The notes under the pieces: generated by a model | The model's input: the letters and a program-made list of their open reading frames with translations, nothing else | Told to the model about the DNA's origin: nothing | Databases searched by the model: none | From: Heliorestis convoluta | GTDB lineage: Bacteria; Bacillota; Desulfitobacteriia; Heliobacteriales; Heliobacteriaceae | Assembly: GCF_009649955.1 (NCBI RefSeq) | Contig: NZ_CP045875.1 | Coordinates: forward strand, 849,501 to 913,500 | Direction: 5' to 3' | DNA length: 64,000 nt | Shown here: piece by piece, positions 33,612 to 59,364 of the stretch | How positions within the stretch are numbered: the first letter of the stretch is position 1 | Layout: each line of letters begins with the position of its first letter | Made by a program: the position numbers and the translations under genes

Positions 33612-33641
33612 CCTGATCACATTGGGGTTACTTCATAGAGG
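33612..33641 (+). repeat. Left arm of a 30-bp inverted repeat
   Basis: Starts CCTGATCACATTGGGG and includes GGTTACTTCATA. It matches the reverse complement of 34231-34260 at 26 of 30 positions, like the end of a mobile element. Confidence 0.7.
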
Positions 33642-34011
33642 GGCCAGGTCATCACGCTTTCCTCCGCTCTGGACTGGTCCCACGCTGTTACCGCCAGCAA
33701 GCTACTGATACGCTGAGGTCCCAAGTCCCGCTGCGGAAAGCGTGATGCCCAGGCCCAGAGGACTTTTTGCTGATTGTTACTTTCCGTTGACATTGCTTTG
33801 CGCAACTTTCTGCGATGTATATGCAACTGCTTATTGTTTTTGTATTTGCAATAAGCCAAAACTCAGTCACAACCAGCAAGATGTATCTGGGTCAGGCGTT
33901 ATGACTTCCTGGAGAGAGGACTATCAGACCTCAGCCATCGGCAGCTTGCTGCCGCTCATGGCGTGGGATGAGTCCGTTCGGAAGGAAATCATAACGCCTG
34001 ACCCCACCACA
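33612..34011 (+). repeat. Structured repeat element, copy 1 (two modules plus middle hairpin)
   Basis: A noncoding element of about 400 bp. Module A lies at 33645-33757, in reverse sense, closed by 33650-33662 with 33735-33747 (13 bp). A middle hairpin pairs 33829-33836 with 33849-33856. Module B lies at 33889-34004, closed by a perfect 16-bp stem (33889-33904 with 33989-34004). The same layout occurs at 50527-50912. In this copy the inner helix of module A is damaged (GCTACTGATACGC replaces the paired arm), so this copy may be decaying. Its first 30 bases recur inverted at 34231-34260. It matches no RNA or mobile element family I recognise. Confidence 0.8.
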
Positions 34012-47852: not shown

Positions 47853-47892
47853 TTGCCACAAGGACGTTTCGTTTGCCACGCAGAGCTACTCC

Positions 47893-48060
47893 AATGGGAG
47901 TAACAATCAGCAAAAACTCTCTGGGTCTGGGCATCACGCTTTCCGCAGCGGGACTTGGGACCTCAGCTATCGCCAGCTTGCTGGCGATAGCAGCGTGGGA
48001 CCAGTCCAGAGCGGAGGAAAGCGTGATGACCAGGTCCCCCCTTGCAAGAAGTAACCCCAA
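47893..48060 (-). repeat. Structured repeat element, copy 3 (module A alone, inverted)
   Basis: One module in the sense opposite to module A of the other copies. The outer stem is 47932-47944 with 48016-48028 (13 bp, identical to the other copies). The inner part has GGACTTGGGACCTCAGC, the CTTG-capped hairpin CGCCAG-CTTG-CTGGCG and GCGTGGGACCAGTCC. Here the helix below the tetraloop hairpin is GCTAT/ATAGC, different from copy 2 but still paired. It ends with GAAGTAACCCCAA, the shared end motif. It lies between tal and glpX, where Bacillus has a murA gene. Confidence 0.8.
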
Positions 48061-50435: not shown

Positions 50436-50466
50436 AGCAGAGCCAATAACGAGCTCTGCTCTTTTT
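50436..50466 (+). terminator. Terminator after rpmE
   Basis: AGCAGAGC (50436-50443) and GCTCTGCT (50453-50460), then CTTTTTC. Confidence 0.9.
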
Positions 50467-50516
50467 CTATTCGTCTACATCTACCCCATACAACCCAAGA
50501 GCCTCAACGCACCTTG

Positions 50517-50912
50517 TAACCCTCCTAGGGGTTACTGCTTGCAGGGGCCCGGTCATCACGCTTTCCTCCGCTCTGGACTGGTCCCACGCTGTTACCGCCA
50601 GCAAGCTGGCGACAGCTGAGGTCCCAAGTCCCGCTGCGGAAAGCGTGATGCCCAGGCCCAGAAGGCTTTTACTGATTGTTACTCCCATTGACATACCTTT
50701 GTGTAACACGTCCTGCTATGTTTACGCAACTACCTATTGTATTTGCAATGCAATAGGCCCAAACCCAGTCACAACCAGTAAAATGTACCTGGGTCAGGCG
50801 TTATGACTTCCTGGAGAGAGGACTTCAGACCTCAGCCATCGGCAGCTTGCTGCCGCCTATGGCGTGGGATGAGTCCGTTCGGAAGGAAATCATAACGCCT
50901 GACCCCACCACA
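50517..50912 (+). repeat. Structured repeat element, copy 2 (most intact)
   Basis: About 390 bp, noncoding, same layout as copy 1. A small palindrome with GTAACCC and GGGTTAC (50517-50536) marks the left end. Module A is closed by 50554-50566 with 50638-50650. The middle hairpin CCTATTG/CAATAGG (50733-50739 with 50751-50757) replaces GCTTATTG/CAATAAGC of copy 1, a compensatory change. Module B is closed by 50791-50806 with 50890-50905. Both modules contain GACCTCAGC, a CTTG-capped hairpin and GCGTGGGA when each is read in its own sense. It lies between rpmE and prfA, where Bacillus has tdk. Confidence 0.85.
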
Positions 50913-59275: not shown

Positions 59276-59364
59276 AGAAGAACAAAGAAAAACCAACACC
59301 AGTCATAGAAAAAGAACAATGTATCTGGGCCTGGCAGGTCCCAGCATAAGGGAGGTTCCAAAAA

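Follow-up and report, generated by a model that had tools for sequence, protein, structure and literature searches.

An unclassified, MITE-like hairpin family in Heliorestis convoluta and other Bacillota

The insertion sequence IS1272 targets stem-loops and replaces them (Wan et al. 2017; PMC5678879). The same authors proposed a second outcome, duplication of the whole stem-loop, should joining take place at the 5′ feet of a cruciform. On the REP sequences and their RAYTs, the text of a 2013 survey makes no mention of Firmicutes (PMC3733652). The genome of Heliorestis convoluta HH, 3.22 Mb on one chromosome, has been described (PMC7143216); this heliobacterium genome paper leaves unmentioned the more than 100 repeats for which the hairpin family considered here accounts.

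The present work examines a window of 64,000 nucleotides from H. convoluta (C1:849501-913500 of genome G000, a single contig of 3,218,981 bp), and in particular the element at 50517-50912, which has rpmE and prfA on either side. The hairpin family to which it belongs is real, unclassified, phylum-wide and MITE-like. It shows a rare pairing of properties: a folded core is kept across families while the ends turn over, and the target-site duplication is of variable length and comprises a whole terminator hairpin. This provides a sequence-level case for structure-dependent transposition, which has so far been argued mainly from IS1272.

Modules and units in the H. convoluta genome

The sequence-only reading had described the rpmE-prfA element as two homologous modules in opposite orientation, and this description holds (Table 1). 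Modules A and B can be aligned end to end, with outer stems that differ yet stay complementary. Both fold far better than shuffled sequences: the RNA folds reach -78 and -73.5 kcal/mol (z ~ -8 against dinucleotide shuffles), and the DNA folds give z values of -7 to -8.5 on both strands. Reading frames across the element are short or chance ones only.

Table 1. Positions of hairpin modules and adjoining features within the window.
Feature	Position	Strand	Basis or remark
Module A, long imperfect hairpin with conserved core	50544-50659	-	core pattern, alignment, fold
Module B, hairpin homologous to module A	50785-50911	+	~73-75% identity to A
Spacer of A-B unit	50660-50784	.	inverted repeats TTTTTGCTGATTGTTA / CACAACCAGCAAAA at its ends
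Palindrome GTAACCCTCCTAGGGGTTAC adjoining left side of unit	50516-50535	.	read in sequence; fold
rpmE intrinsic terminator GCAGAG..CTCTGCTCTTTTT	50437-50467	+	also at unit-free H. acidaminivorans site
Solo module A, transaldolase/glpX gap	47922-48037	+	similarity to rpmE-prfA unit covers 47878-48038 only
Module A of second complete A-B unit	33640-33755	-	
Module B of second complete A-B unit	33884-34010	+	

The core pattern GGACTTNNGACCTCAGC..GCGTGGGANNAGTCC has four matches in the window, and a looser version, GACCTCAGC..GCGTGGGA, has five (33678-, 33927+, 47959+, 50582-, 50828+); none are expected from shuffles in either case. The looser pattern thereby recovers all five modules that had been counted in the window beforehand. 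Because the similarity to the rpmE-prfA unit breaks off at 47878 and 48038, the solo module A is a truncated unit. A 24-nt hairpin in the window's comEB-wecB gap (TCTGGGCCTGGCAGGTCCCAGCAT, 59324-59347) resembles the outer ends of a module and has no core; H. acidaminivorans has a full module there, and the hairpin is possibly a deletion scar.

Across the whole genome, DNA and covariance-model searches found at least 146 modules (E <= 1e-13, among 150 scored candidates), all between genes. Modules of one type share 88-100% identity and occur in both orientations. Altogether, 98 modules or pieces were mapped, covering the examined stretches of the genome. Among these, 86 make up 43 complete A(-)-spacer-B(+) units of about 390 bp, which are found in both genomic orientations and have spacers of 118-137 bp; the remaining ones are solo or truncated. 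The exact ends of the unit are blurred by other repeats alongside. Many units (e.g. L033, L052) have at their flanks a second small repeat, the palindrome CATGCCCGGTCGGGCAC..GATGAAAAT, which is also found without the A-B cassette. The A-B units may be nested in this repeat or joined to it. Two A..B gaps of about 1.5 kb (930-933 kb and 1274-1276 kb) were considered as autonomous copies; each consists of two adjacent units around ordinary genes.

Relatives and the folded core

Distribution was assessed with a first covariance model (R1) and then with a core model (R2) derived from 20 modules of the Heliobacteriaceae. Such a search of related genomes had been suggested from the sequence, and it located the module both in other Heliobacteriaceae and in distant Bacillota. 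Within the family, R1/R2 detect 12-13 modules in Heliorestis acidaminivorans (DSM 24790, same genus). Heliobacterium chlorum and H. mobile have five apiece; G005 and a further four members of the family gave no match.

Most of the H. chlorum and H. mobile copies follow directly on the 3′ end of 23S rRNA, and may affect 23S maturation. There, the module sits between the 23S 3′ end and a CTGTGTAGTTTTGAGGG trailer motif (L073, L074, L078, L081, L082, L085, L086, L089); in H. modesticaldum, nothing but a short spacer occupies this position. A general association with 23S rRNA was discarded, as it is confined to Heliobacterium and the module is absent behind the readable 23S ends of Heliorestis and H. 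modesticaldum. In H. convoluta, the 3′ portion of 23S rRNA has several partial matches, at C1 505731-505992, 1459254-1459523, 1534624-1535010 and 3215535-3215923, one of them directly upstream of a tRNA-Asn gene; these are either real fragments or a scoring artefact.

Beyond the Heliobacteriaceae, the R2 search of a phylum-wide draw of 398 genomes yielded nine further carriers in five families among about 390 other Bacillota genomes, including G163 (44 copies), G191 (25), G156 (23), G224 (12) and G449 (10). In these bacteria the element consists of one hairpin, about 140 bp long, and most full-length distant copies reach 47-68 bits (E 1e-11 to 1e-17). A scan of 85,000 genomes with the exact pattern gave non-heliobacterial matches that lacked model support beyond chance level; it missed the distant relatives found by the covariance model because their cores deviate from the pattern. 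In G446 the match is limited to model positions 24-62, the core's apical hairpin, which is present as six tandem repeats of about 90 bp at L267:1472-1962 and in dispersed copies elsewhere. Phage or plasmid carriage was also considered and dropped, the one weak pattern match in viral contigs being without model support; BLAST found no match to the G191 element in either the phage or the plasmid collection.

In an alignment of 97 distinct modules, 91% of the pairs in the core structure are standard, and 14 of 20 pairs show changes on both sides. The covariation score is 0.342, compared with 0.112 +/- 0.007 in shuffles, of which 0 out of 500 reach the observed value, and with at most 0.064 in slid versions. 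Covariation above background, which had been proposed as a check, is thus evident in the core pairs. This alignment was fitted to the model, which biases it in favour of the structure; a MAFFT alignment of the founding set gives a concordant result. The sequence kept in the core is roughly GNAGCGGGRC, YCAGC, CGTCG, a 3-nt bulge before AACGGCGT, and GTCC-NNN-GCG, while the outer stems and ends are variable. Identity over the whole module is 49-68% between most lineages and rises to 74-88% among G191, G449, G411 and G115, a group drawn from two families. The paired helix changes pointed out earlier between modules A and B are genuine, except that GG/CC against CA/TG belongs to a variable internal loop, which has other states as well; the features best kept in the wider alignments are a CA/UG internal loop and the 3-nt bulge on the 3′ arm. 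The assignment to an unclassified structured family is borne out by this strong covariation and by Rfam 15, which gave no match at gathering or relaxed thresholds.

Insertion sites, and RNA or DNA

Comparison of the two Heliorestis species reveals polymorphic sites. The rpmE-prfA gap measures 541 nt with the unit in H. convoluta and 160 nt without it in H. acidaminivorans, where the same terminator is present. Conversely, the glyA-upp and comEB-wecB gaps measure 79 and 128 nt in H. convoluta against 274 and 196 nt in H. acidaminivorans, which carries a module in each. Between transaldolase and glpX both species have a module, with outer stems that are unlike.

In G191, a complete Bacillota chromosome, 40 elements bear 15-bp terminal inverted repeats (CAGNYYGTMGACAAA) at both ends. 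The core lies inside an element of about 142 bp (CAGACCGTCGACAAA.../...TTTGTCTACAAGCTG), and elements of 200, 265 and 408 bp have the same ends. Those of 265 and 408 bp (L302, L304, L305, L306, L314, L315) contain an unrelated, hairpin-rich interior, together with terminal repeats and duplicated palindromes as in the core-bearing element.

A locus-specific direct repeat (score >= 12) flanks 29 of the 40 G191 elements and none of 1560 mismatched left/right pairs. It is usually an entire stem-loop of 16-31 bp, unlike between loci and touching both ends of the element, and most of the duplicated palindromes are terminator-like. Palindrome duplication is likewise seen in G449 and G115. In these three genomes the repeat is a long target-site duplication of variable length that equals a palindrome. 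The H. convoluta units, and likewise G224, G163 and G156, yielded no duplicated target palindrome; by analogy with its relatives' elements, the H. convoluta unit would move by the same route.

Whether the fold acts as RNA or as DNA can be addressed through its mismatches. Selection at the RNA level should tolerate G.U and not A.C. In the stems, G.T and A.C mismatches stand at 43:34 (p=0.36; 36:27 in outer stems, 7:7 in core helices), counted as distinct genome/position events that are limited in number, share ancestry and are not fully independent. Modules lie mostly between tandem or convergent genes, 30 in the same orientation as the gene and 27 opposite; in tandem-gene settings, sense and antisense modules number 12:11, 6:8, 6:5 and 6:3. 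The mismatch symmetry and random gene orientation fit a DNA palindrome better than an RNA. Covariation alone, however strong, is no proof of RNA, and here the symmetry of the mismatches points to DNA. Template switching across a palindrome can yield compensatory changes without selection; on its own, it would not account for the persistence of asymmetric loops and bulges.

A new structured non-coding RNA, either trans-acting or an mRNA/rRNA processing hairpin, with a core that binds a protein or RNase and copies duplicated over the genome, would agree with the strong covariation, the conserved internal loop and the one-sided bulges, as well as with the modules directly behind 23S rRNA in H. 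chlorum and H. mobile, presumably inside a transcribed unit. It is nonetheless distinctly unlikely, given that the stems show no significant excess of G.T over A.C, that orientation relative to genes is random, that palindromes are duplicated around the G191 copies, and that insertion sites differ between the two Heliorestis species. The sequence-only reading had offered a non-coding RNA or a MITE/REP-like element; the mobile option fits, while mismatches, orientation, site polymorphism and terminator duplications do not favour the RNA.

Mobilisation and comparison with known systems

Most probably, the element is mobile DNA of the MITE kind, non-autonomous and mobilised in trans by an enzyme that probably acts on folded DNA. 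The element would fold into a long DNA hairpin or cruciform, to be recognised through its conserved core and/or its ends by an enzyme supplied in trans. This enzyme would insert it next to a second hairpin in the DNA, as a rule an intrinsic terminator, and repair of the staggered joint would duplicate the entire target palindrome. The G191 duplications match the 5′-feet outcome proposed in PMC5678879, and from this match we infer that insertion depends on structure. We likewise infer the enzyme, an intermediate of folded DNA and the part played by the core; conservation of the core gives rise to the hypothesis that it may be the recognised structure. More tentatively, and as a possibility that we rate below even, this may be an undescribed, phylum-wide family of folded DNA that is recognised by its core rather than its ends, and that inserts hairpin into hairpin with the target terminator duplicated whole.

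A transposase with ends matching those of the element, the existence of which had been suggested, was looked for and none was found; in 15 G191 regions with unpaired ends, sought as autonomous copies, no transposase lies between matching ends. Nor were core matches present near any of the transposase loci tested, Y1 included. As a sub-case of the MITE explanation, a DDE transposase of IS1182/IS1272 type that targets stem-loops could be the source of mobility. Target choice and palindrome duplication match the pathway proposed for this group (PMC5678879), insertion occurs at palindromes in G191, G449 and G115, and several carrier genomes have DUF772 transposases. This sub-case is unlikely, however, as the DUF772 element of G191 has ends with GAGCT rather than CAGAC and flanks that suggest a duplication of only ~5 bp, and as H. 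convoluta and H. acidaminivorans are carriers without a DUF772 match; in H. convoluta, searches gave no match to either PF05598 (DUF772) or PF13751 (DDE_Tnp_1_6).

It is highly improbable that the modules are REP/BIME-type repeats moved by a RAYT (a Y1 tyrosine transposase), with the inverted module pairs corresponding to a BIME or REPIN. They are indeed dispersed palindromes that lie outside genes and form inverted pairs, for the most part where the neighbouring genes are tandem or convergent, and G001, G449, G115, G197 and G156 have Y1 genes of RAYT size. Yet the modules measure 85-142 nt rather than 20-40, H. convoluta has only one Y1 gene, of IS200 size (136 aa), Heliobacterium chlorum and H. 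mobile (G002, G006) and G163 have none, and no module occurs at any Y1 locus tested. Moreover, palindrome duplications are not expected from the tyrosine HUH mechanism. The G191 ends contain CGTC and GTAG within their repeats; other lineages have no fixed tag. A G191 reading frame (L379:976-1839) encodes an IS200-type Y1 transposase domain fused to a phage-integrase domain.

A further point against the MITE explanation is that conservation is higher in the interior than at the ends, which is unusual for such elements and could reflect a host function.

Among described systems, REP/BIME sequences with RAYTs (GTAG and CGTC families; PMC3733652) resemble the hairpin family as extragenic palindromes that often form inverted pairs. 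The hairpin modules differ in being several times longer, with an internal-loop core and apparently no consistent GTAG/CGTC tag, and the H. convoluta genome lacks a RAYT-size gene. The IS1272/IS1182 family likewise targets stem-loops that are unrelated in sequence and of which some lie shortly behind genes, and has a proposed pathway of whole-stem-loop duplication (PMC5678879). Unlike IS1272, which deletes its target stem-loop and encodes a transposase, the hairpin family duplicates the palindrome and is non-coding, with ends that showed no relation to those of a resident DUF772 element. Bacterial MITEs (Bcr1, NEMIS/Correia, ERIC, RUP; PMC3733652, PMC10969869) are similarly short, non-coding and interspersed, with strong hairpin potential and with terminal inverted repeats such as those of the G191 form; in contrast to them, the hairpin family conserves its interior core rather than its ends between lineages, and its target duplication is a palindrome of variable length.
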